From Anaerolineales bacterium (lineage in GTDB: Bacteria > Chloroflexota > Anaerolineae > Anaerolineales > Villigracilaceae): a DNA stretch of 14,744 bases. Both the position numbers and the translations under genes were made by a program. The stretch lies in NCBI GenBank assembly GCA_025966435.1, contig JAICRQ010000029.1:1-14744 (forward strand), read 5' to 3'. Shown here one piece after another: positions 1,322-14,744 of the stretch. Below the pieces are notes generated by a model, which searched no databases, had not been told where the DNA came from, and worked only from the letters and a program-made list of their open reading frames with translations. Position 1 is the stretch's first letter. Every line of letters begins with the position of its first letter.

Positions 1322-3238
1322 CTATTCAATCATCTGGATGTCCCAATCCTCGGCGAAGAAGGGAACATAGACACCTTCGTTCACATCATAGAACGTAAGG
1401 GGTGGGTACAGGAAAGTACTGAGCACCGCGCCTTGAAGCAGAACTGTATCTGGCGAATACAGGTTGTAGTTTCCCGCGGGAGGTTGGATGTACGGATAAC
1501 TCGTTTTGAACTCTTTCGCAGTGTTGGTTTCGCTGGGCTGCAATATACCGGTGAGGAACTGGCGCGCCACAGGCGAGTTGTTCTGGTTGTTGTTATAGAT
1601 CGGGTCATCGGGCGGCAGCCAGCCAACAACACGCGTTTGAGTATCCACAGGGTCAGTGAGGTAACGCTCGAACATCTGCACGACCGGCAGGTTCTCGTTG
1701 AACATGGAAGCCATGTCGGCAACGTATGGTTTCTGAGCTTCGATATCGAACCCTTCTGCCATTTTGTCGACCCATTCCTTGATGTTGATCTCTTTGCCGT
1801 CCGCCGTCATCTGCTCGTACGGCATGTTCATACCGCGTTCGCCTTCTGCTCCTTCTGGATCATTCTTGAAGCCAATGCCGGGACGCACGTTGTAATCATA
1901 GGACACGAACGGGTGGAAATAGGTAAAGCGCATGCCGATATCCATGGACATCTCATAATCGCCGGCTTTGTGTTTATCATTGCGCTCGGCAGATGGGTAC
2001 GGCTGGACGTTGACCACGATCCCGAATTCGGCGAGCTGCTGCGCCACGTTCTCGGAGGACGCCAGGTACTCGGTGAAGTCGGCTGGTACGCTTAGACTGA
2101 ACTCCATCCTGTTGCCCTGATCATCTACCCAGACGCCGTCACTGCCCTTTGTGAAGCCCAGGCCGGTCAGCAATTCCTCAGCTTTCGCCAGATCGTAGTC
2201 ATAGGTATTGAGAGCGGCAATCTGGTCCTCTGAAAGCCAGGTCGGCACTGCGGCATCGGTGAAGCCGACCATATACTGGATCGGGCGGCAGCTTTCCCCA
2301 AAGGCGACGGTGCAGTTCTCCACGCGGTCAATGGCGTAGGCGATTGCCTGGCGCACTTCTTTCACGCCCAGCGGGTACACATCATGGTTGAAGTAAATGC
2401 CGGGACCATTCGTTGCCGGACCGCCGAGAACGACAATATGAGGGCCCATGGCGCGAATCGCTTCCAGATTTGCCGGACTGTAGGCATTCGAGGAATAGTC
2501 CATTTCGCCGGAGAGATAGAGCGGCATATCCTGGGCGGTGTCACCCCAGTAGACCGTGACCGTGTCAAAGTCGATCTGGTCGGCGTTGAAGCCGGTCGGT
2601 ACCTTCACCATCGAGAGCTGCGCTTCCGTGACGGAGGCTGGGTCAATATTATACGGACCATAAACAACGCCAGACTCAGGCAGGAACGCATTCAACTCAT
2701 CATTGACAGCCGTGACCTCGGCGCCATCACGATCAGCGCCCTCTGCACGGAATGCAGCCGCCGCGTCCATCCACTGCCCATATTGAGAATAGGGCCGCGG
2801 CGAGTTGGAACGGACGATGGCGTCCAGAACAGCCGGACCAGGGGTGATAATCTGGAATTGAACTGTCTGGTCATCCTTGGCAACCACATCAGCCAGCGAG
2901 TCCCAGGTCCCGCTCTTGCGCATCCATAAAATGTCCCAGGTGCCAACAAGATCTTTGGAGGTTAAAGGGGTGCCATCACTCCATGTAGCGCCCTCGGGCA
3001 ACGTGATGGTGATGACGGCTGTGACGCCCTCCGGGAACTCCTCCGCTGGCACCTCTGTTGCTTCGGCAGTTGCTGGGGCTTCAGTGGGTTCAGAGGTTGG
3101 TGGTTCCGTAGCTGGCGGCTCGGTGGCCGGCGGGTCCGTGGCTGCCGGTGGCTCGGTAGCGGGAGGTGCACCACACGCACTTAACACTAGCGCGAGCAGG
3201 ACGATCAGGCTGAAAAGGGTAGAGACTTTCTTGGACAT
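1322..3238 (-). CDS. Extracellular solute-binding lipoprotein, family 5, apparently circularly permuted
   Basis: Membrane-anchored substrate-binding protein of the peptide/nickel ABC class, 638 aa from the ATG at 3238. That start is preferred over an upstream in-frame codon at 3298 because a purine-rich AGGAG site precedes it and because MSKKVSTLF then begins a clean lipoprotein signal with lipobox LSAC (Cys22). Residues 24-65 form a low-complexity PPATE-type linker. WSDGTPLTSKDL, a motif usually found about 80-100 residues into the mature protein after an N-terminal lobe, is at residues 86-97, directly after the linker. The expected N-terminal lobe elements (NLYSPD, STFLYPPLTFYD, YVPFFAEDWDI) are instead at residues 588-638, after the normal C-terminal region (VVGWLPPDDP, about 540-550). 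Family membership is secure, permutation is inferred from motif order, and the ligand is unknown; operon context suggests muropeptides. Confidence 0.9.
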   Translation of the reverse strand: MSKKVSTLFSLIVLLALVLSACGAPPATEPPAATDPPATEPPATEPPTSEPTEAPATAEATEVPAEEFPEGVTAVITITLPEGATWSDGTPLTSKDLVGTWDILWMRKSGTWDSLADVVAKDDQTVQFQIITPGPAVLDAIVRSNSPRPYSQYGQWMDAAAAFRAEGADRDGAEVTAVNDELNAFLPESGVVYGPYNIDPASVTEAQLSMVKVPTGFNADQIDFDTVTVYWGDTAQDMPLYLSGEMDYSSNAYSPANLEAIRAMGPHIVVLGGPATNGPGIYFNHDVYPLGVKEVRQAIAYAIDRVENCTVAFGESCRPIQYMVGFTDAAVPTWLSEDQIAALNTYDYDLAKAEELLTGLGFTKGSDGVWVDDQGNRMEFSLSVPADFTEYLASSENVAQQLAEFGIVVNVQPYPSAERNDKHKAGDYEMSMDIGMRFTYFHPFVSYDYNVRPGIGFKNDPEGAEGERGMNMPYEQMTADGKEINIKEWVDKMAEGFDIEAQKPYVADMASMFNENLPVVQMFERYLTDPVDTQTRVVGWLPPDDPIYNNNQNNSPVARQFLTGILQPSETNTAKEFKTSYPYIQPPAGNYNLYSPDTVLLQGAVLSTFLYPPLTFYDVNEGVYVPFFAEDWDIQMIE

Positions 3239-3334: not shown

Positions 3335-3523
3335 TTATGGCTTCTTGCGGCGAACCAGAACGACGATTATGCCGATGAACAACAGGCCACTCAGCAATGT
3401 AACCACGGACATGACCCGTTCGGCGCTACCGGGCTCGGTGAGGATCACCAGGGCCACAGATACCACAGTGAGCATCATGGCGATCCGAAACCATGCCTGT
3501 CCAGCTTCAGGATTCATTTGCAT
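3335..3523 (-). CDS. Small two-helix membrane protein
   Basis: Unrecognised 62-aa protein (MQMNPEAGQAWFR...), or 60 aa if the second ATG at 3517 is used. Two hydrophobic stretches are seen, about residues 14-29 and 37-57, separated by a short polar turn (TEPGSAERV), with a basic tail (VRRKKP) that suggests a cytoplasmic C-terminus. The start lies inside the end of the upstream ATPase gene (overlap about 11-17 nt) and no clear ribosome site precedes it, so translational coupling is likely. It sits between the last transporter ATPase and the binding-protein gene, so it may be an accessory subunit or a stabiliser of the importer; that role is inferred only from position. Immediately after its stop codon is an AGGAGGAGG run without a convincing start codon at the right distance. 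Confidence 0.65.
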   Translation of the reverse strand: MQMNPEAGQAWFRIAMMLTVVSVALVILTEPGSAERVMSVVTLLSGLLFIGIIVVLVRRKKP

Positions 3524-4493
3524 GTACCAGGTGGCAGGCAGCCTCACTTCCCCAGTTGGCTTTTTCGAGCGGAGGTACGATGTTTTCGCACACTTCGCCC
3601 GCAAAGACCGGACAGCGGGGATGGAACGTGCAGCCCGTCGGCAGTCGTAACAGACTGGGCATATCTGTGCTGCGCAATGCGACACGCGGCTTGGCGCGGG
3701 TCGCATCTGGATCTGCTTCGGGAATGGCTGACAATAACACCTGGGTGTATGGATGCTGAGGATGCTCTACCACCTGCCGCGCCGGACCGATCTCCACCAG
3801 CCTGCCGAGATACATCACCCCGATGCGTCCCTCCCAGGCGAAATATTTTGCCAGCGCCAGGTCATGAGTGATGAGCAGCACTCCTACTCCCATTTCATCC
3901 TTGAGCCGTGCGAACATATTCAACAGACTAATACGGATAGAAACGTCCACCATGGATACAGCTTCATCCGCTACAATGAACGTGGGCAGCACCGTCAGGG
4001 CACGCGCCACTGAGACGCGCTGGCGCTGTCCGCCGCTAAGCTGGTGCGGGTATTTTTCCAGAAAGTCGTCGGGTGGGGTCAGGTCTACGATCTCCAGCAA
4101 GTGGCATATACGACGCTTCGTCTCATATTCACCGCGTGTAAAGCCGTGGTGTTGTAGCGGCGCCGCCAGGATGTCGTAGATGGTTTGGGTTGGGTTGAGC
4201 GAGGCGTAAGGATCCTGATGCACCATCTGCACTCCGAGGCGATACGCTTTGCGGTCATTGCCTGCGATGGTCGCGATATCCTTGCCGTGATACAGGATGC
4301 GCCCGGCGGAGGTCGGCAACAAGCCGGCGATCATCTTGCCCGTCGTCGTCTTGCCGCATCCTGACTCGCCCACCAGACACAACATCTCACCCTGAGGAAT
4401 GGTCAGGTTGACATCGTCTACAGCCTTAATGGTCTGCCCCTTAACCGTGAAGGTCCGCGTGACGTGCTCCAGTGTAATCAGTGGCTCAGACAT
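3507..4493 (-). CDS. Peptide-type ABC transporter ATPase (DppF/OppF-like)
   Basis: Second nucleotide-binding subunit of the importer, 328 aa. The start is set at ATG 4493 (MSEPLITLEHV), with AGGA upstream; an in-frame TTG at 4520 is an alternative. Walker A GESGCGKT is at 42-49, the Q-loop MVHQDP at 90-95, the signature LSGGQ at 152-156, Walker B FIVADE at 172-177 and the switch His at 210. The Walker B tail reads DEAVSMVDVS, with Ala where Pro is usual. The C-terminal oligopeptide-transporter tail carries Cys288, Cys294, Cys302 and Cys320, the set that can hold an iron-sulfur cluster in related ATPases. It starts 40 nt after the DppD-like gene and overlaps the next small gene. It should pair with the DppD-like ATPase under the two permeases. 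Confidence 0.95.
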   Translation of the reverse strand: MSEPLITLEHVTRTFTVKGQTIKAVDDVNLTIPQGEMLCLVGESGCGKTTTGKMIAGLLPTSAGRILYHGKDIATIAGNDRKAYRLGVQMVHQDPYASLNPTQTIYDILAAPLQHHGFTRGEYETKRRICHLLEIVDLTPPDDFLEKYPHQLSGGQRQRVSVARALTVLPTFIVADEAVSMVDVSIRISLLNMFARLKDEMGVGVLLITHDLALAKYFAWEGRIGVMYLGRLVEIGPARQVVEHPQHPYTQVLLSAIPEADPDATRAKPRVALRSTDMPSLLRLPTGCTFHPRCPVFAGEVCENIVPPLEKANWGSEAACHLVHANES

Positions 4494-4533
4494 GAATGAT
4501 CCTGCTATGTTCCATTGCAACTTTTGGTGAACA

Positions 4534-5583
4534 TTAGGTCTCCGCTCGATAAGCCTTCAGGGCTTCCCGCGCGTGTGTCCAATGCCAGCAAGCCACGTGA
4601 TGCCCGGGCTCTACTTCGATCAGCGCAGGCTCTTCTTGTTGAGAGCGCTCATCAGCCAGAGGGCAGCGCGGATGGAACTTACAGCCGGTTGGAAGTTGGA
4701 TGAGATCAGGCGGCGAACCGGGTACGGAGACGAGGCTGGACTTGTCACTGGTAAGGGTTGGCACGGCCTTGATCAAGCCGATCGTATACGGGTGATACGG
4801 GCGGCGGAAGATAGTCCGCACATCGCCGACTTCGATGATCTTCCCCGCGTAGACGGTAGCCACCCGATCCGCCAGTTCGGCAGCCAGCGCCAAGTCGTGC
4901 GAGATAAAGAGCATCGAGAAACCAAGCTTGTCACGCAGCTCTTTTAGCACATCCATGATATTGCGCTGAGTGAGGATATCGAGCGCAGTGGTCGGCTCAT
5001 CGAGGATTAACAGTTGGGGTTCGAGCAGCAATGCCAGGGCAATTAGTACGCGCTGGCGCATCCCGCCGGAGAGTTCATGCGGAAACGAGCGCCAAACCCG
5101 CTCCGGGTCGAGCCGTACCATCGACAGCAACTGCCACGACCGTTCACGCAGCGCGGTCCCCTGCCGATACCCGGACAGATACCCGTGCGCTTTTGCCGTA
5201 TCTGCAAAGTGCTCCGAGATACGTAAGACTGGGTTTAAGGCGTTCAGGGCAGACTGAAACACCATGGCACATTCGCGCCAGCGAAACTGGCGCAGGTTAT
5301 CGCCCTTCAATGCCAACACTTCGGTCTCGCGACTAGCCGAGTTCGAGCCATTCTTGTAGCGGCGATAAACAATGCTGCCGCCGATAATATTAGCCGTCGC
5401 AGGCAATAAGCGCATCAGTCCCAAGCCTACAGTGGTCTTGCCGGAGCCGCTTTCACCGATCAATGCCACAGCCTCACCGCGCTCGACATCGAAGGAGATG
5501 TTGCGCACTGCCTGCACCTGACCGCGTCTCGCTTGATAGACAATGGAAAGATCGCGGACGGAAAGTGTAGGTTCAGCCATCAT
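4534..5583 (-). CDS. Peptide-type ABC transporter ATPase (DppD/OppD-like)
   Basis: First nucleotide-binding subunit, 349 aa. GAGGAG precedes two consecutive ATGs, and the second (5580) has better spacing from it, so the true protein may be one residue shorter. Walker A GESGSGKT is at 43-50, the Q-loop VFQSALNALNP at about 108-118, the signature LSGGM at 171-175, Walker B LLILDEP at 191-197 and the switch His at 229. A polar insert around residues 74-90 (YRRYKNGSNSASRETEV) makes the region before the Q-loop longer than usual. The C-terminal tail has Cys301, Cys307 and Cys332, but a Ser (about 314) stands where the third cluster Cys is expected, unlike its partner. It starts 11 nt after the DppC-like gene. 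Confidence 0.95.
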   Translation of the reverse strand: MMAEPTLSVRDLSIVYQARRGQVQAVRNISFDVERGEAVALIGESGSGKTTVGLGLMRLLPATANIIGGSIVYRRYKNGSNSASRETEVLALKGDNLRQFRWRECAMVFQSALNALNPVLRISEHFADTAKAHGYLSGYRQGTALRERSWQLLSMVRLDPERVWRSFPHELSGGMRQRVLIALALLLEPQLLILDEPTTALDILTQRNIMDVLKELRDKLGFSMLFISHDLALAAELADRVATVYAGKIIEVGDVRTIFRRPYHPYTIGLIKAVPTLTSDKSSLVSVPGSPPDLIQLPTGCKFHPRCPLADERSQQEEPALIEVEPGHHVACWHWTHAREALKAYRAET

Positions 5584-5594
5584 TCACTCCTCAG

Positions 5595-6482
5595 CTATAC
5601 ACCTGTGCGCAACCGTGGGTTGAATACCTCGTCCAGCGATCGGGCAAACGACACCAGAGCAAGCTGAAAGAGGACAATTGCAGCCATCGGTGCAAGGATG
5701 CTCCAGGCTGCCTGTGGGTTGAACAAAACCCCGCGCCGTTCTGCTGCGCTGATCATCACCCCCCAATTAGCGCTGGAATAGGGAACGATTCCAAGAAAGA
5801 CCAGCCCGGTCTGCTGGTAGATGGCATGGGTCATTTCGAAGATCGTCGAGATGGCAATGAACGACATCATGTTGGGCAGCAGCTCCCGGAAGACAATGCG
5901 CGGCGTACCCAGATCCAACATAGTGGCAGCCTCAATATATTCGCGGCTCTTCAGCGATAACACCTGGCTGCGCACTTGCCTCGCCAGAGCGGGCCAATCG
6001 AGGAGCGCCATCAACACCGACAACATAACAACATCCTTGAGTGCCAGCACTGTAGCCAACACAGCCAGCAGAGGAAACTTCGGAATGGTCAACCAGATAT
6101 TGACAAACTCCATCAGTATGCTGTCCACCCGTCCACCAATAAAGGCGCTGAACGAGCCAACCACGACCGCGATCAGCATGGAGAGCACACCGGTGACCAG
6201 CGCTATGGTGACAATATCCCTGCCGCCATTGATGATTTTGCGCAGGTTGTCTTGACCCTGAAAATCGGTTCCCAGCCAGTGCTCGGGCGAGCTGCCTTTA
6301 TTGATCTGAGCCACGTTGGCGGACGTCTCAGGCGGCCATAAAAGTGGGCCGATAAACGAGATTAGGATAATCAGCAAAGTCATGATAAAACCAAAGAGTC
6401 CCATTTTGTTGCGGCTCATAATTTTGAACGTCTTAAGGCTCTCGCGCCAGAAGCTGGTGATAAAGTCGTGGAAGGTATGCAT
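5595..6482 (-). CDS. Peptide-type ABC transporter permease (DppC/OppC-like)
   Basis: Inner-membrane permease of 295 aa with a cytoplasmic N-terminus, a first helix at about 27-50 (GLFGFIMTLLIILISFIGPLL) and the DppC-family extracellular segment containing HWLGTDFQGQD. The ATPase-coupling EAA loop is seen as REYIEAATMLDLGTPRIVF followed by ELLPN. Several further hydrophobic helices follow, ending near the C-terminus (ILAPMAAIVLFQLALVSFA). Its ATG directly abuts the TAG of the upstream permease with no spacer, a strong sign of coupled translation and 1:1 assembly of the two permeases. Confidence 0.95.
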   Translation of the reverse strand: MHTFHDFITSFWRESLKTFKIMSRNKMGLFGFIMTLLIILISFIGPLLWPPETSANVAQINKGSSPEHWLGTDFQGQDNLRKIINGGRDIVTIALVTGVLSMLIAVVVGSFSAFIGGRVDSILMEFVNIWLTIPKFPLLAVLATVLALKDVVMLSVLMALLDWPALARQVRSQVLSLKSREYIEAATMLDLGTPRIVFRELLPNMMSFIAISTIFEMTHAIYQQTGLVFLGIVPYSSANWGVMISAAERRGVLFNPQAAWSILAPMAAIVLFQLALVSFARSLDEVFNPRLRTGV

Positions 6483-7556
6483 CTAGTTCTCTTCTCCCAT
6501 GATGTGAACGCGTGGGTCAAGCCAGCCATACACATAATCAGCCAGCAGATTCGCAAAGACCACGGAGATGGTAATGATCAGGAATACACCCTGCATGACT
6601 GGATAGTCCCGTTCTGAGATGGAGCGAGCCAGCAAAAACCCGATTCCCCGGTAGGTGAACAACGTCTCCAGTAGTACCGATCCCCCTACGACGAATCCAA
6701 CAGAGATCGCCAGGCGTGTGAATAGCGGCAGTGTCGCGTTGCGCCCCACATACGCCGTAAGAATACGGCCATCCGTGAGCCCGCGCGCCCGCGCCACAGT
6801 GACATAATCCTCGCCCAGAGTCGCTACGGTATTGCTCTTCATTTGCAGCATCCACGAACCAATTGACGAAAGCACATATACTAGAAGCAGGACGCGTACG
6901 TGCCTGAATACATCGGTCAGGAACTCGAGCGTGAATCCCGGCTTGATTCCCGGCGACATTGCCCCTCGCATATCCATGATCGGAACGAGTTTCCAGGTGA
7001 GTCCCAGGAGAAGGATGGCGAGCAACCCGATGAGATAAGGCGAAATGGCATCCAGCGTGGCTGCGACGTTGCTCAACAGATGGTCGATCCAGGTGTCACG
7101 TTTGTATGCCATAATCGTTCCCAGCGCGATCCCTACGACAAAGGTTATCAGCAATGCCAAGCCGACGCTGAACAGCGTCCACGGTAATACCTGCACGATC
7201 ATGTCGGTTACCGACAAGCCGGCTGATTTATATGAGTGGCCGAGATCGCCGCGCAGTGTATTACCCAAGTAATCCAGATATTGCCCTGCCAGCGGTTGGT
7301 CAAGATCGATGTTCATCAGCGCCGCCGCCTGGTTCTTGGCGTCTTCGGCTGACATACCCTGTGCGGTCAACTCCTGAATCAAGATATCCACCGCGTTGCC
7401 CGGCATAGCCCGGATCACGAAAAAAGTGATGGTGGCAACCAGCCAGATACTGAACAAAGCCTTCGCCAGCCGCCGCCATAGATAACTGGATCTGATCTTT
7501 TGGATAGTACTCCACAATGTGGATGGGGTCGTCTGGGAGGTTGTAATCGTGGTCAT
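6483..7556 (-). CDS. Peptide-type ABC transporter permease (DppB/OppB-like)
   Basis: Inner-membrane permease of 357 aa. The start is set at ATG 7556 (MTTITTSQ); a longer in-frame version from 7628 would overlap the NamZ gene by about 60 nt and adds non-typical sequence. It has an N-terminal polar extension of about 30 residues, a first helix (ALFSIWLVATITFFVIRAMPG), a long extracellular loop rich in Ala/Gln/Asp (about 55-95), and the EAA loop EDYVTVARARGLTDGRI. The family-typical TYRGIGFLLARSISERDYPV near the C-terminus identifies it as the DppB-type subunit. It follows the NamZ gene by 11 nt without a clear ribosome site. Confidence 0.94.
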   Translation of the reverse strand: MTTITTSQTTPSTLWSTIQKIRSSYLWRRLAKALFSIWLVATITFFVIRAMPGNAVDILIQELTAQGMSAEDAKNQAAALMNIDLDQPLAGQYLDYLGNTLRGDLGHSYKSAGLSVTDMIVQVLPWTLFSVGLALLITFVVGIALGTIMAYKRDTWIDHLLSNVAATLDAISPYLIGLLAILLLGLTWKLVPIMDMRGAMSPGIKPGFTLEFLTDVFRHVRVLLLVYVLSSIGSWMLQMKSNTVATLGEDYVTVARARGLTDGRILTAYVGRNATLPLFTRLAISVGFVVGGSVLLETLFTYRGIGFLLARSISERDYPVMQGVFLIITISVVFANLLADYVYGWLDPRVHIMGEEN

Positions 7557-7567
7557 AAGATAATCAA

Positions 7568-8701
7568 TTATCCATACATCAGGTACGCTTCTCTTTGCCG
7601 GAGGAACGTGGAGATCGTTTCTTCCCAATTCGCAATCATTTCAGTCACACTCCTTCCCTCCTCCAGTGCTGAGCTGACGCTATTGCTGCCGACCAGCCGT
7701 TCGAAATGCGGGTTCCACATCCAGGCATCTCCGGACAAACAACGCGCGATGGCAATCAAATGAAGCGCCATCTCCACCGGGCGAAGGGAGTCGCGGTCGG
7801 TAACATGCACCTGCACACCGTGACACTCAGCCCCGGCATGGGTAGACGTGGCGGGGGTGAATGCGGTCGCTCGAAAGCGGACTCCCGGGAGTTGGAGTCT
7901 GTTCAACGCTTCTGCCAGAGCATAGCCATCGGCCCAGGGCGCGCCACATACTTCAAATGGCAACGCAGTCCCGCGTCCCAGAGAAAGGTTGGTACCCTCG
8001 AGTAAACACATCCCCGGGTAGAGCGTCGCCGTGGAAAGATGCGGCATGGCGGGAGAAGTAGTTACCCAAGGTAGAGCAGTTTCGTCAAACCACATCTGGC
8101 GCTGCCAGCCTTGCATACCGATCACATGCAAGTCCGCATCGAGCGCGTATTCCTTGTTCATATAGCGCGCCAGCTCACCAAGCGTCATCCCATGGCGTAT
8201 CGGAATATTGATGATGCCTACGAACGACTCGAACCCTGGCAGGATAGCTCCACCTTCGATCAGGCTCCCGGTAATCGGGTTGGGGCGATCCAGCACAAAG
8301 ACCGGTTTGCCCGCTTTGCCTGCGCCAAGTAGAACATAGAAAAGCGTACTCAGATACGTATAAAAACGCACGCCAACATCCTGCATATCAAAGACAAGTA
8401 TATCCACGTTGGCGAGCATTTCAGCGGTAGGCACGCGGACCGCGCCGTATAAACTGAATACAGGCAGACCAGTTCGTGGATCAGTGGCATGACCAATCTG
8501 CACGCCGTCTGCCGCCGCGCCATCAAAGCCATGTTCAGGTCCAAAAAGAGCAGTGACGATAACACCTGCACCGCCTAGAGCATCCACCGAAAAGGTAAAG
8601 TCTGGCAGGACAGCCGCAGGCATCGAGACAAGCCCCACTCGCTGGTTTACCAGGAGGTGAGACTTCTCATGCACAAGAATGTCGAGCCCGGTTTTGACCA
8701 T
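7568..8701 (-). CDS. namZ: NamZ-type exo-beta-N-acetylmuramidase (DUF1343, GH171)
   Basis: Member of the DUF1343 family whose founding enzyme, NamZ (YbbC) of Bacillus subtilis, releases MurNAc from the non-reducing end of peptidoglycan fragments. The protein is 377 aa, full length for the family without a signal peptide. Conserved blocks are ALFGPEHG (51-58, Glu56 a likely active-site acid), LPVFSLYG, FDMQDVGVRFYTYLS (104-118), VLDRPNPITG (136-145), IPIRHGMTLGEL, and YPGMCLLEGTNLSLGRGT (228-245), then FEVCGAPW. The N-terminus MVKTGLDILVHEK enters the catalytic domain at once, so no export signal is present, unlike the secreted Bacillus enzyme. ATG 8701 is 8 nt after the regulator stop, with AAGG overlapping that stop. 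Pairing with the downstream NagZ supports peptidoglycan-sugar recovery. Confidence 0.93.
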   Translation of the reverse strand: MVKTGLDILVHEKSHLLVNQRVGLVSMPAAVLPDFTFSVDALGGAGVIVTALFGPEHGFDGAAADGVQIGHATDPRTGLPVFSLYGAVRVPTAEMLANVDILVFDMQDVGVRFYTYLSTLFYVLLGAGKAGKPVFVLDRPNPITGSLIEGGAILPGFESFVGIINIPIRHGMTLGELARYMNKEYALDADLHVIGMQGWQRQMWFDETALPWVTTSPAMPHLSTATLYPGMCLLEGTNLSLGRGTALPFEVCGAPWADGYALAEALNRLQLPGVRFRATAFTPATSTHAGAECHGVQVHVTDRDSLRPVEMALHLIAIARCLSGDAWMWNPHFERLVGSNSVSSALEEGRSVTEMIANWEETISTFLRQREAYLMYG

Positions 8702-8709
8702 ATTCGGCC

Positions 8710-9438
8710 TTAGGATTGGAGCGTCGTATGGAATTTATAGCGATCGCCGCGATATGCGGACTTCACATATTCAACGAGCGTATTCTGCGCGTTGTAAGAG
8801 AGACGTTCAATTCGCAATACGGGGGATGGTGAGCTGATTTTGAGAAGCTCGGACTCTTCAGGAGTAGCCAGACCGGCTTCCATCGTCTGTTCGGCGCGGA
8901 CCAGAATCGTGTTATAGCGGGTGGCAAGCACATTGTACAGGCTTTCTTTCGAAAAGTCATAGTCAAGGATACCAGGGCATACCCGGTGCAAGATGTGCGC
9001 TTCTTCGATTGCCAGTGGGATGCCATCCGAAAGACGTAAACGTGAAAGCAGCACAATTTCGGTGTTCATTGGCACCGCGAAAATCGCAGCAAGCATTAGC
9101 GTTGCCGGAATGACCCGCGCCTCCAGCATCTGCCCGGATGCCACCGTGCCGCGCGCTGCCATATCCTGGCTGAAACCCGTTAATGTTTGCAGCTCCTGCT
9201 TGATCTTTGATTCGCTGACGTAAGTGCCTTTTCCCACCTGAGTATAGAGAATGCCTTCGCGGATCATTTCAGTCAACGCCTGACGAACCGTCATGCGACT
9301 GACCTTGAACTTCTCCCCCAGTTCGCGCTCGGACATCAACCGCTCATGAGGCTTATAGTGTCCGGCGCCTATATCCGCGACGAGCGCATTCTTTAGCTGT
9401 AAGTAAAGCGGTGTGGGAGCTTCGCGCCTGAGCCTCAT
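8710..9438 (-). CDS. GntR-family transcriptional regulator, HutC subfamily (UTRA domain)
   Basis: Cytoplasmic DNA-binding regulator of 242 aa. Residues 8-74 form the GntR winged helix: PLYLQLKNAL, the recognition region LMSERELGEKFKVSRMTVRQ, and the wing GKGTYV. Residues of about 85-240 match the UTRA effector domain, with the typical features LLSRLRLSDGIPLAIEE and VEYVKSAYRGDRYKF. In this subfamily several members (NagR/YvoA, DasR) sense amino-sugar phosphates; the ligand here is inferred from neighbours. It is the first gene of the operon, and a perfect palindrome over its promoter implies autoregulation. The ATG at 9438 is preceded by AGGA at good spacing. Confidence 0.95.
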   Translation of the reverse strand: MRLRREAPTPLYLQLKNALVADIGAGHYKPHERLMSERELGEKFKVSRMTVRQALTEMIREGILYTQVGKGTYVSESKIKQELQTLTGFSQDMAARGTVASGQMLEARVIPATLMLAAIFAVPMNTEIVLLSRLRLSDGIPLAIEEAHILHRVCPGILDYDFSKESLYNVLATRYNTILVRAEQTMEAGLATPEESELLKISSPSPVLRIERLSYNAQNTLVEYVKSAYRGDRYKFHTTLQS

Positions 9439-9582: not shown

Positions 9583-10431
9583 CTAACCATTCCTTCTCAC
9601 CCGCTCCTGAACATCCGTGGCAAACCGTTGAATGAACTGACCAACAAATTCAGCTGGACTGAGCTTCATAGCATCCATCAAAGGTGTCATATCCATTCCA
9701 TAGTTGAGGGCCGTTGTTGCATCCACACCGTGTGAGCCAAGATAAGTGGCATTCGCGCGGCGGCGTCCCATCGAAGCCAGGTCATACCGTTTGCCACCTG
9801 CAATTTGCGAATCAAATACGCCCAATAAGGCAAACTGCAGATTCTCATGTCCGGAGAGATCCATCAGCACTTTATCCGAGTCGACCATCCAATCCAACGC
9901 CCGCCAGACTTCACACCCAATAACTCGCTCGGGACGTTCCGCCAGATCTAGTTTCCGCAAGGCTTCGATCACCCGGAGAGCGACTGCCACGTGCGTATCG
10001 TGCTTATCCGCCAGATTGTGAGTATATACAAACCTGGGCTTCGTTGCCTGAAGGATTGCAAGGATATCATCCACAGGCCCGCGCTGCGAGCCGTCCTTCA
10101 TCACCTTGCTGGGAATATCCAGCATGATCTGTGCTGCGAACTCCCCAACAACTGCCGCTTTACGCTGTTCCTTGAAACGGACCAGGCGCATTTCCTCATC
10201 TGTGTAATCTTTATAGAGACTGTCACGCGGTGAGCCGCGGCCGTCTGTCACGACCACGCCGGTGAACCATTGATCCGGTTGTTGAAAACATTCAAGGATT
10301 GGCTGTGCCGCCATGATCTCAATATCATCCTGATGCGCGGCAAAACATAGATGCGTTGTTCGCGCCAATGCCTGTTCTTCAGGCGTCTGATCGGGAATGT
10401 AAATCTCAGCTGTGCTAAGATGGAATTTCAT
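9583..10431 (-). CDS. PIG-L/LmbE-family deacetylase
   Basis: Putative zinc-dependent N-deacetylase of 282 aa; the family acts on N-acetylglucosaminyl groups (GlcNAc-PI, MshB and BshB substrates, chitobiose and others). Metal-site motifs are AHQDD (His33, Asp35, Asp36), where most relatives have AHPDD, and HDTH (His144, His147). The conserved RFKEQRKAA helix follows TDGRGSPR. No signal peptide is seen, so it is probably cytoplasmic. The start at ATG 10431 has AGAGG upstream at about 8 nt. It lies upstream of the regulator on the same strand, but a 144-nt gap holding the operon promoter separates them, so it is probably its own unit. Amino-sugar deacetylation would fit the neighbouring operon, but the substrate cannot be read from sequence. 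Confidence 0.88.
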   Translation of the reverse strand: MKFHLSTAEIYIPDQTPEEQALARTTHLCFAAHQDDIEIMAAQPILECFQQPDQWFTGVVVTDGRGSPRDSLYKDYTDEEMRLVRFKEQRKAAVVGEFAAQIMLDIPSKVMKDGSQRGPVDDILAILQATKPRFVYTHNLADKHDTHVAVALRVIEALRKLDLAERPERVIGCEVWRALDWMVDSDKVLMDLSGHENLQFALLGVFDSQIAGGKRYDLASMGRRRANATYLGSHGVDATTALNYGMDMTPLMDAMKLSPAEFVGQFIQRFATDVQERVRRNG

Positions 10432-12064: not shown

Positions 12065-13402
12065 ATGAGTCGAACAAGTAAACTTTTCTTCACGTTCAGC
12101 CTGCTGGCACTCCTAGTATTGACCTTCAGCAGGCCTGCAAGCGCATTCGATGGCCGCTCCGGCGAAAACATCGTGATCCAGAGCGATGAAGTGATCGATG
12201 ATGATCTTTACATCACCGCCGGGACGTTCGTTTTGGACGGTACAGTAAACGGCGATCTGATTGCTGTAGGCCAGACCATTACCATCAACGGCAGAGTAGA
12301 TGGCGATGTGCTGGCGGCCGGGCAAACCATCGCCGTTCATGGCACAGTGACCGGCGCGATCCGTATGGCGGGTTCCATCTTGCTCCTCGACGAGCAAGCC
12401 AGCATCGGCGGGGACATCATTGCGGCGGGCTATAGCTTGGAGACCCGGGAAGGAAGCGCGATCGGTCAGGATCTTGTGTTCGCGGGCGGGCAGACCCTGC
12501 TGGCGGGCGCCGTGACGCGTAATGTGCATGCAGCCACCGGAGCGTTCGAACTGCGTGGTACGGTAGGAGGTAGCATCAATGCAGAAGTCGGAGAAGCGGA
12601 TGCAGGCTATGCTGGCCCGCCGCCGACGCTCTTCATGCGCCCCTCAGTCTCCGTGCCGAAAGTGGCTCCCGGTCTCACGATTGCCCCATCGGCAAAGATC
12701 GAAGGAGATCTGGAGTATACGCAATCCAGAGAGCTTGCCATCCCGGCAGGTGTCGTCGTAGGGGAAGTCACCCGCGACCAGCCGGCGACAAATACAACCG
12801 CGCCGGGTCAGGAGACCACCGGTGAAAGAATTCTGAATTGGGGCGTAAACCTGTTGCGCACGAGCATCACCCTGATTCTGATCGGCTTGTTCCTGCTCTG
12901 GTTGTTCCCGTCGTTTATGCGGGGTTTGAGCCTGAAGCTGCAATCGGCCACCTGGCCCAGCCTGGGATGGGGTGTCGCAGCGTATGCGGGCTTTTTCTTT
13001 GTGTTGCTGCTCATCGTTGCCGGAACGATCGCAGGCGGACTGCTCTTCGGCGTATTGACCCTGGGCGGGCTAGCGGGCACCGTCGTCTGGGTCGGCATCC
13101 TTTCACTTTTCGCCCTGGTCCTCGGGTTTGTGCTGGTCACTTCTTTCGTCGCGAAGATCGTATTCGGTCAGGCGCTCGGGAGATGGCTCCTCAGCCGCGC
13201 AAGCTCACCACTGGCTGAACACCGCTTCTGGCCGATGGTCATTGGCGTGATCGTTACGGTTGCGGTGATTGCCCTGTTTCGCTTTCCTCTCATCCCCGGG
13301 TTCCTAGGTGGATTGCTGAATTTTGCGGTCATTCTGTTTGGCTTGGGCGCGTTCTGGCTCTGGGGACGTGAACGAATTGTTCGCCGGTCTGTCGCGCCGT
13401 AG
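12065..13402 (+). CDS. Exported bactofilin-like beta-helix protein with C-terminal membrane domain
   Basis: Predicted envelope protein of 445 aa. Residues 1-27 form a signal peptide ending PASA. Residues of about 37-235 are short beta-helix-like repeats of about 17-19 residues, of the type DGTVNGDLIAVGQTITI, NGRVDGDVLAAGQTIAV, HGTVTGAIRMAG, as in polymer-forming bactofilins. After a Thr/Pro-rich stretch (about 240-255) come about five or six hydrophobic helices from residue 268 to the basic tail (RERIVRRSVAP). The polymer-like part would therefore face outside, unlike classical cytoplasmic bactofilins. A strong AAGGAG sits 6 nt before the ATG. It follows the aminotransferase by 148 nt, in which I see no clear terminator or promoter. 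A surface or envelope-structural role is inferred. Confidence 0.88.
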   Translation: MSRTSKLFFTFSLLALLVLTFSRPASAFDGRSGENIVIQSDEVIDDDLYITAGTFVLDGTVNGDLIAVGQTITINGRVDGDVLAAGQTIAVHGTVTGAIRMAGSILLLDEQASIGGDIIAAGYSLETREGSAIGQDLVFAGGQTLLAGAVTRNVHAATGAFELRGTVGGSINAEVGEADAGYAGPPPTLFMRPSVSVPKVAPGLTIAPSAKIEGDLEYTQSRELAIPAGVVVGEVTRDQPATNTTAPGQETTGERILNWGVNLLRTSITLILIGLFLLWLFPSFMRGLSLKLQSATWPSLGWGVAAYAGFFFVLLLIVAGTIAGGLLFGVLTLGGLAGTVVWVGILSLFALVLGFVLVTSFVAKIVFGQALGRWLLSRASSPLAEHRFWPMVIGVIVTVAVIALFRFPLIPGFLGGLLNFAVILFGLGAFWLWGRERIVRRSVAP

Positions 13403-13547: not shown

Positions 13548-14744
13548 TTACTTAAATTGATTTTGGAACTGAGCGACGATGCCTTCCGTCAGCATGTGCG
13601 CCATTTGAAGGATCTCGTCGTGAACCTTATCATAGGCGACGACGTCGCCAGCCCAGTCTGCATTCAGCCGAGCTGAGGCTTCCTCCAGAGTCAAATCCAG
13701 GTGCATACTCATCATGGACTGCATTTCAGCCAGCTGCCAGTGCCTGGGATTGGCACTGTTCAGGAACGCCGCAATGTCATCTGCATTTTGGTACCAGCGC
13801 TCATTGGCATCTTCGAACCTAGCTGTATCGCCAGCCTTCGCAGCAGCGAGGAGATCCGCGGCAATCAGGATATGCTCATTGAGCAGGGATGTCAGTTGTT
13901 TACCAGCTTTATCCCCATAGAATGGTTTGACTGCGTTTCCAATGTCCACCTGGTTTTGCAAAAGACGTGCCGCAGCGGCATCTGCATCCGGCAGATCACT
14001 GGTGACGCTCATAATATAAAGGCGGGTCCAGGTAACATGATCCTCCCACAGTGCATCCATTGCCAAAGTGAGCCCAATCTCCTGCTGGGAGGCTTTCTGG
14101 TTGGCGAAACTCTTAGGGAACTGTCTGATGATCCCGTCAGAGATCATATCAGCCATATGGAGGATCTCATTGTGAACCTTGTCATAGGCGACGATGTCGC
14201 CAGCCCAGTCCTCATTCAAACGAGCAGTGGCTTCCTCCAGAGTGAGGTCTAAATGATCTTTCATCATCGTCTTCATTTCATCCAGCCGCCAGTGCCTGGG
14301 ATTGGCGCTGTTCAGGAAGGCTGCAATGTCATCTGCATTTTCGTACCAGCGTTTATTTGCATCTTCGAACCTGGCTGAATCGCCAGCCTTCGCGGCGGCA
14401 AGAAGGTCAACTGCGATCAGGATGTGGTCTTCCAGTAATGCAGTTAGCTGCTCGCCGGCCTCGTCACCGTAGAACGGTTTGACCGCGTTTCCAATATCTG
14501 TCTGGCTTTGCAATAACCGTTGGGCAGCGGCATCCGCTTCGGGCAAGTCCGCGAGGGCGGCAATGATATAAACGCGGGTCCAGGTGACATGATCCTCCCA
14601 GAGTTTACGGACCGCCTGCTGGAATACAAGCGGATCAATTTTCTTATTTTTGTTTGCCGTTTGTACGAAGTCAAAAATCTCCACGTGAGATATGGATTCG
14701 GCAGGGTTCAGCGTTGTCTCGTGTGATTCCGCATGAGAATGAAC
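13548..14744 (-). CDS. Tandem-duplicated helical protein of unknown function, 5' end not resolved
   Basis: At least 378 aa if it starts at GTG 14684. The frame is open to the right edge (HSHAESHETTLNPAES upstream) and no ribosome site precedes the GTG, so the true start is probably outside the window. It consists of two copies of a roughly 160-residue unit, residues 28-187 and 212-371 counted from the GTG, joined by a short linker. Each begins LWEDHVTWTR and contains DIGNAVKPFYGD, DDIAAFLNSANPRHW, HLDLTLEEA and VAYDKVH. The units look wholly alpha-helical, and acidic-His pairs recur in most helices (EDH, EDH or NEH, HLDL, VHNE or VHDE), which could form a metal site. No membrane helix is seen in the visible part. 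I know similar single-unit proteins as an uncharacterised bacterial family with unreliable names, so no function is assigned. Confidence 0.85.
   Translation of the reverse strand, partial: VHSHAESHETTLNPAESISHVEIFDFVQTANKNKKIDPLVFQQAVRKLWEDHVTWTRVYIIAALADLPEADAAAQRLLQSQTDIGNAVKPFYGDEAGEQLTALLEDHILIAVDLLAAAKAGDSARFEDANKRWYENADDIAAFLNSANPRHWRLDEMKTMMKDHLDLTLEEATARLNEDWAGDIVAYDKVHNEILHMADMISDGIIRQFPKSFANQKASQQEIGLTLAMDALWEDHVTWTRLYIMSVTSDLPDADAAAARLLQNQVDIGNAVKPFYGDKAGKQLTSLLNEHILIAADLLAAAKAGDTARFEDANERWYQNADDIAAFLNSANPRHWQLAEMQSMMSMHLDLTLEEASARLNADWAGDVVAYDKVHDEILQMAHMLTEGIVAQFQNQFK
13572..14051 (-). repeat. Internal repeat unit 2 of the helical protein
   Basis: C-terminal 160-residue unit. 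Aligned by eye without gaps to unit 1 it agrees at about 124 of 160 positions. The period between units is 184 codons (552 nt), and the DNA is also visibly similar, for example around the LWEDH and RFEDAN codons. Confidence 0.9.
14124..14603 (-). repeat. Internal repeat unit 1 of the helical protein
   Basis: N-terminal unit of the duplication. Differences from unit 2 cluster in the second helix segment (VYIIAALADL against LYIMSVTSDL) and near the unit end, while the His/acid-rich motifs are identical or conservatively changed. Confidence 0.9.

Follow-up and report, generated by a model that had tools for sequence, protein, structure and literature searches.

The stretch of DNA analysed here, called the window, comprises 14,744 nucleotides of contig JAICRQ010000029.1 from an Anaerolineales bacterium and carries, beside the genes of an OppBCDF-type importer, a gene for a lipoprotein-type substrate-binding protein (SBP) whose parts stand in an altered order. 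The open reading frame (ORF) is intact (1322-3238, minus strand; ATG at 3238, stop codon at 1322-1324) and encodes 638 amino acids. A lipobox (LSAC, Cys22) and a Pro/Thr/Glu-rich linker are followed by VITITLPEGATWSDGTPLT at residues 75-93, a first post-linker stretch that was also read as AVITITLPEGATWSDG, and the block typical of an N-terminus, KEFKTSYPYIQPPAGNYNLYSPD...YVPFFAEDWDIQMIE, is found at the C-terminus (residues 575-638), after VVGW (537-540) and GILQP (564-568). The original prediction, that the linker leads directly into the core and that an N-terminal-type block closes the protein, was thus confirmed.

By core homology the protein belongs to SBP_bac_5 (PF00496), or cluster C: the Pfam model gives 141.1 bits (cut-off 32.4) over residues 75-434 and is entered at profile position 18, and the overall bilobed cluster C fold is predicted by modelling. 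The canonical order, with the lobe-I block ahead of the W-DG core, is absent. Because the block (575-635) lies behind the core (74-569), the protein is classed as a permuted variant and not as a canonical member of the family.

Evidence for the displaced block

A search through 84,980 species genomes gave 237 stretches encoding a relative, of which the best 80 were taken as loci. ORFs of at least 500 amino acids from 120 listed proteins, these loci and the window were classed by the position of the block and not by match range (some sequences being present twice, as protein and as locus), which gave 121 permuted, 55 normal-order and two unclassed (L075, P0096) sequences. Relatives with both orders, which the original prediction had proposed to look for, therefore exist. 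The normal-order domain starts with EFHGAWPYKVPPEGHFNTF...WVPLLFTSWEY..., continues with FVVHLRKGVKWSDG and ends at GTLxP; permuted proteins start at the ITITL strand and have the homologous block placed after GxLKPS. This difference in block position accounts for the different ends of the matches, at query residue ~635 in some and at ~570 or earlier in others; a few normal-order sequences match to ~634, which we read as their own N-terminal block being counted. In 112 of the 121 permuted rows the protein ends either with the block itself or 3 residues beyond it. An assembly or annotation artefact might be suspected in a window from a draft assembly with 635 contigs and 80% completeness, all the more as the permuted form of this family, hereafter type I, occurs in no genus or family mate of the sampled sets. 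However, the frame is single and uninterrupted, and the order is common to sequences from many contigs and sources, including the 4.1-Mb Longilinea arvoryzae KOME-1 record; this exceedingly improbable explanation was rejected on the counts of relatives sharing the order and the block end.

With the block placed first, the start of the PF00496 match shifts from profile position 18 to 3, but the score rises by just 2.4 bits, since that model does not extend over most of the block. Since Pfam was indecisive, a family-specific profile was built from 47 of the 55 normal-order proteins, eight divergent or truncated ones being dropped. Against the native window protein it matches in two pieces that are out of order (profile 64-550 on residues 74-569, 480.5 bits; profile 2-60 on residues 575-635, 27.9 bits), and a raw six-frame scan of the window likewise gives two pieces, 474.6 bits and 25.9 bits (E 1e-9). 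When the block is moved to the front, as the original prediction had suggested, a single continuous match (2-550) of 520.4 bits replaces them, a gain of 40 bits; controls put in the same place reach at most 486.4 bits (+6) for 200 shuffled blocks and 483.8 bits for 23 core segments. The same rearrangement raises the best-domain score of the 121 permuted sequences by a mean of 45 bits, with a smallest gain of 3.7 and gains above 10 in 120 of them. Chance is excluded as the source of the two-piece match.

Block profiles match in both directions: that of the permuted C-terminal blocks gives 9.5 to 51.2 bits against the N-termini of normal proteins, and the normal N-terminal one matches the window protein at 576-635 with 37.0 bits. 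The block might nevertheless have been taken from another SBP gene after loss of the original one, an origin that the authors of the TpMglB-2 report raised for their own protein (PMC4990184); the product would be permuted all the same, and a block donated by a close paralogue within the family could not be told from the protein's own. We consider this quite unlikely, as the block bears the family's own signature (..YPY..PP.G..N), matches the N-termini of normal relatives with up to 51.2 bits, and finds no match among the tested SBP ORFs of the same genome (best -0.7 bits; eight loci, of which L007 gave only an ATPase ORF).

AlphaFold2 models were obtained for the window protein (predicted local distance difference test score, pLDDT, 89.3; predicted template modelling score, pTM, 0.82; 53 sequences) and for the normal-order relative L083 (pLDDT 87.5, pTM 0.82, 23 sequences). 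Their elements correspond throughout the block, with strands 71-75, 110-113, 118-121 and 124-130 of L083 equivalent to 576-581, 615-618, 623-626 and 631-636 of the window protein and helices 94-97/99-104 equivalent to 603-610; in the core, strand 135-140 corresponds to 74-79, and helices 154-166 and 170-173 to 94-106 and 110-114. The cut is accordingly predicted to lie in the turn of a lobe-I beta-hairpin (124-130/135-140 in L083, 631-636/74-79 here), in agreement with the original prediction of a cut between AEDWDI and AVITITL in neighbouring strands. According to the models, the fold should be unchanged, with residues 575-638 occupying the place that the N-terminal part of lobe I normally has. 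The block could instead complete a neighbouring molecule in a domain-swapped dimer, for which there is nothing beyond the possibility itself; with a junction of only a few residues and high confidence of the monomer model over the whole block, such a swap is very unlikely. Sequential alignments to solved structures start at model residue 55-73 (chain residue 47-100). Of the 50 rows shown, 49 end at 566-573 and so omit the moved block; 2o7i_A alone among them reaches residue 638. No structure in the VIA-align rows has a range covering the moved block in place. Among the matches listed in two structure searches (one Foldseek, 50 rows shown in each), the hits look, to judge by their titles, like family 5 binders.

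Origin and distribution of type I

In a core tree of 83 rows (28 permuted, 55 normal), one branch parts the two orders with a Shimodaira-Hasegawa-like approximate likelihood ratio (SH-aLRT) support of 100; drawn with the root at the midpoint, the tree nests the permuted group, whose named rows are all Chloroflexota, within the normal-order family. The ATPase tree (15 permuted versus 45 normal rows) has the same split with support 99, some normal rows being very long-branched. The gene order GntR-NamZ-OppB-C-D-F-SBP is seen with both SBP orders, nine of the 55 normal loci having been inspected. As both occupy the same place by OppBCDF, some of them with NamZ, the permutation probably happened in place. 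These sequence relationships suggest that it most likely arose once, in place, and was then inherited with the transporter.

In the class to which the window's genome belongs, 12 of the 396 genomes sampled gave a match to the full junction, and all 12 read as permuted; the other 66 of the 78 genomes matched did so over only part of the junction, and the 17 of their loci that were read, together with L097, were all normal. A phylum-wide draw of 400 genomes gave the full junction only once, in the window's own genome, and the 23 other loci found read as normal. No type I protein was present in genus or family mates within the sampled class and phylum sets, and the best OppC relative among 17 genus mates searched is 34% identical; the window contig may therefore represent a horizontal gain or may be mis-binned. 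Its G+C content (54.5%) is similar to that of the other contigs checked (53.0-56.4%) and does not discriminate between the two.

Operon, tether and further permuted types

Two permeases and two ATPases stand beside the SBP gene, as in an OppBCDF-type importer, and a NamZ-type gene, a regulator and a deacetylase gene lie upstream (Table 1). NamZ is encoded in the transporter operon of the window and of seven of the 11 testable permuted loci, and was not found in the other four; those N-termini that are readable have no visible signal peptide. Its activity is presumed from the Pfam name, and we take ybbC to be namZ of Bacillus subtilis. One report lists ybbC in the N-acetylmuramic acid (MurNAc) recycling cluster, with its function given as not known (PMC5061867). 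The best structural matches of the window protein are mannoside and chitooligosaccharide binders. Given these matches and NamZ in the operon, the ligand is perhaps an oligosaccharide of amino sugars, for instance a fragment of peptidoglycan that would later be cut by cytoplasmic NamZ, a suggestion to which we attach somewhat less than even chances.

Table 1. Features of the SBP gene and of neighbouring genes in the window.
Feature	Position	Strand	Basis
Signal peptide and lipobox (LSAC, Cys22)	3173..3238	-	Sequence; pattern finds lipobox in 104/121 permuted rows
Pro/Thr/Glu-rich tether, residues 23-68	3035..3172	-	AlphaFold pLDDT <50 over 21-57 and 59-63
SBP_bac_5 core, residues 74-569 (normal-order profile 64-550)	1532..3019	-	480.5 bits; PF00496 141.1 bits
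First core strand, residues 74-79 (predicted second strand of cut hairpin)	3002..3019	-	Equivalent to E135-140 of normal-order model
Junction of old C-terminus (GILQPSETNT) and old mature N-terminus (AK/EF...)	1514..1549	-	Ends of normal-order relatives
Displaced N-terminal block, residues 575-638 (normal-order profile 2-60)	1325..1516	-	27.9 bits; block profiles match both ways
Last strand, residues 631-636 (predicted first strand of cut hairpin)	1331..1348	-	Equivalent to E124-130 of normal-order model
OppF-like ATPase	3507..4520	-	PF00005 + PF08352
OppD-like ATPase	4534..5583	-	PF00005 + PF08352
OppC-like permease	5595..6482	-	PF00528 + PF12911
OppB-like permease	6483..7628	-	PF00528
NamZ-type exo-beta-N-acetylmuramidase, no visible signal peptide	7568..8701	-	PF07075 260.5 bits, PF20732 176.2 bits
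GntR/UTRA regulator	8710..9438	-	PF00392, PF07702
PIG-L family deacetylase	9583..10431	-	PF02585 56.1 bits

Elsewhere in the window, a small ORF with hydrophobic stretches (3335-3706; DUF202 21.7 bits, cut-off 23.4) overlaps the OppF gene in another frame. The 445-aa secreted or membrane protein encoded at 12065-13402 has no NCBIfam match and a repetitive N-terminal half, which we presume to resemble polymer-forming proteins, and the 378-aa protein at 13548-14684 consists of two highly similar halves (a ~180-aa repeat, by eye), with a Pfam match below threshold only.

A simple pattern detects a lipobox in 104 of 121 permuted and 21 of 55 normal rows. Among the 17 permuted rows missed, 13 have one by eye (LNAC in 11), and L015, P0047, P0069 and P0088 have truncated or odd N-termini, so that 117 of 121 are positive by pattern or eye. 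The 34 normal-order relatives negative by this pattern (L043, L045, L050, L052, L060-L084 and others) include a large Anaerolineae group in which the block follows almost directly behind the signal peptide. The linker of the window protein is long and modelled with low confidence. It was proposed in the original prediction that the permutation may alter tethering or domain closing; the similar linker lengths in both orders (median 50.5 residues in permuted and 44 in normal rows, among those with a pattern-found lipobox) argue against a large tethering effect.

A Pfam search of the window's own genome revealed other SBPs with profile parts in the wrong order. Type II (L155:641-2407; G000 contig C608) is DppA/HbpA-like and cut near DppA precursor residue 151: residues 502-583 correspond to 64-151 of the Escherichia coli DppA precursor (41% identity) and 80-459 to 152-529 (26%), and against HbpA (3tpa) residues 477-578 correspond to 17-125 and 80-459 to 131-507. 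Type III is represented by two proteins 48% identical to each other (L156:1442-4066 on C423; L157:666-3518, minus strand, on C158); it is cut near the crossing from lobe I to lobe II, with residues 549-761 and 151-324 of the L156 protein corresponding to 105-306 and 402-585 of 7fi3, and carries an extra C-terminal domain that is beta-rich by eye. As judged by eye, none of the three proteins has lost its signal peptide, lipobox or linker. The N-termini of the window SBP, L155 and L156 are alike, with a signal peptide and a TEAP/PPAT-rich linker (window versus L155, 49% over 65 residues); this likeness among differently permuted proteins may reflect low complexity or a shared cassette. A W/F-x-DG-type motif lies toward the C-terminal side in 116 of the 120 type II homologues listed (none in the other four) and in all 115 type III homologues of at least 780 amino acids (five shorter rows omitted), and never within the first 250 residues of those listed. 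Junction profiles at E <=1e-10 were matched in 119 (type II) and 72 (type III) of 298 sampled class genomes, including single-contig genomes (G005, G208 and G609 for type II; G005, G112 and G616 for type III); of the 10 loci fetched for each type, seven for type II and five for type III were read, and all of these have the expected end.

Type I has its nearest relatives among TM1223-like proteins and chitooligosaccharide binders, and type II in HbpA/DppA. A small cross-type tree, which lost eight normal-order and four permuted rows in cutting, carries a long-branch warning and was used only for its deep split, has normal-order rows on either side of the branch (100/100) that separates type I from types II/III; hence the former and the latter look independent. 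Types II and III have different cut sites, and each forms its own tree group. There were thus at least two independent permutation events, and probably three. It could even be that tethered cluster C SBPs of Anaerolineae have taken this route repeatedly and under selection: three subfamilies would have been reopened independently and at three different points, the new start lying straight after the lipobox and linker in each and the former ends being fused, since a moved attachment of the lipid tether changes docking or opening. We regard this as speculative and rather unlikely.

Interpretation and comparison with known systems

Sequence comparisons establish the altered order, the homology of the block, its conservation, the single tree group and the common gene neighbourhood. 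The window protein is very probably a functional, lipid-anchored SBP of an OppBCDF-type importer, the outcome of a single in-place permutation in a Chloroflexota ancestor. The idea that the protein is circularly permuted yet retains its lipoprotein anchor is supported by profile alignment, the core tree with normal-order relatives and the two AlphaFold models. Normal-order relatives end at GTLKP-like residues, and their domain starts at EFHGAWPY-like residues; the former C-terminus would have been linked through a few residues to the former mature N-terminus, and a new opening made in the lobe-I hairpin turn, directly behind signal peptide, lipobox and flexible linker. The route may have been gene duplication, fusion and trimming, as suggested by the short joint of only a few residues between the old ends and the loss of the second signal peptide and linker. 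By analogy with TpMglB-2, the protein would bind its ligand and pass it to OppBC.

Several points weigh against this interpretation. The trees are unrooted and drawn at midpoint, and in the small cross-type tree the five type I rows do not separate as one group from two normal ones (bootstrap support 37%). A duplicated intermediate, with two blocks in one protein, was not detected at E <1 among the 120 proteins, the ORFs from the 80 loci or the window protein itself, and no remnant of an old gene was found in the window, which gave only short, weak tblastn matches. Operon order is variable: the SBP gene precedes the permeases in L060 and L077 (normal), and the ATPases come first in L021 (permuted). 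The block matches three individual solved TM1223-type chains weakly (-1.0, -0.9 and 4.1 bits; -0.3 and -0.1 with the A1 profile), so the sequence case depends on the closer normal-order family. The models were compared by secondary-structure elements in place of a permutation-aware superposition with coordinates, and the ligand is deduced from neighbouring genes and structural matches.

One of the closest comparisons is with the normal-order family itself (Chloroflexota, Bacillota and Thermotogota; WPY..PP.GHFN start), which shares 36-41% identity (L083, L046, L036 and L041), OppBCDF neighbours and, in some cases, NamZ, but has the block at the N-terminus and ends at GTLxP. The solved cluster C sugar binders TM1223 (1vr5, 4pft) and the Vibrio chitooligosaccharide-binding protein (5yqw, 6lzq) have normal order and ~19% identity. 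E. coli DppA and Haemophilus HbpA are of the same Pfam family and also in normal order, the former being distant from the window protein (20.5% identity, E 0.002). In the source annotations examined, permuted proteins are named as ordinary substrate-binding or hypothetical proteins, so that the rearrangement is easily overlooked. Natural permutation of a cluster C protein was not encountered in the literature searched, most subscription papers lying outside that search. The further types with other cut sites, two of them in about 2/5 and 1/4 of sampled class genomes, raise the question why this lineage tolerates or favours permutation in tethered SBPs.

In cluster B, Tp0684/TpMglB-2 of Treponema pallidum has been described as a naturally circularly permuted SBP, with the proposed designation 'Type Ic / Cluster Bc', and glucose binding with a conformational change upon binding was reported (PMC4990184). 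It is likewise a lipidated ATP-binding cassette (ABC) transporter binding protein with N-lobe strands shifted to the C-terminus; having its own first N-lobe strands at the C-terminus of a lipoprotein, the window protein resembles TpMglB-2-like proteins in architecture without being a member of that group. TpMglB-2 differs in its cluster B/type I fold, in having three N-lobe strands moved and an extra hinge crossing, and in the low sequence similarity over its moved part (13% identity), whereas the window protein belongs to cluster C/family 5, shows a clear block match and has close normal-order relatives in a like operon. Permutations traceable to such relatives are informative, since the event, the cut site and the retained partners can be compared directly.
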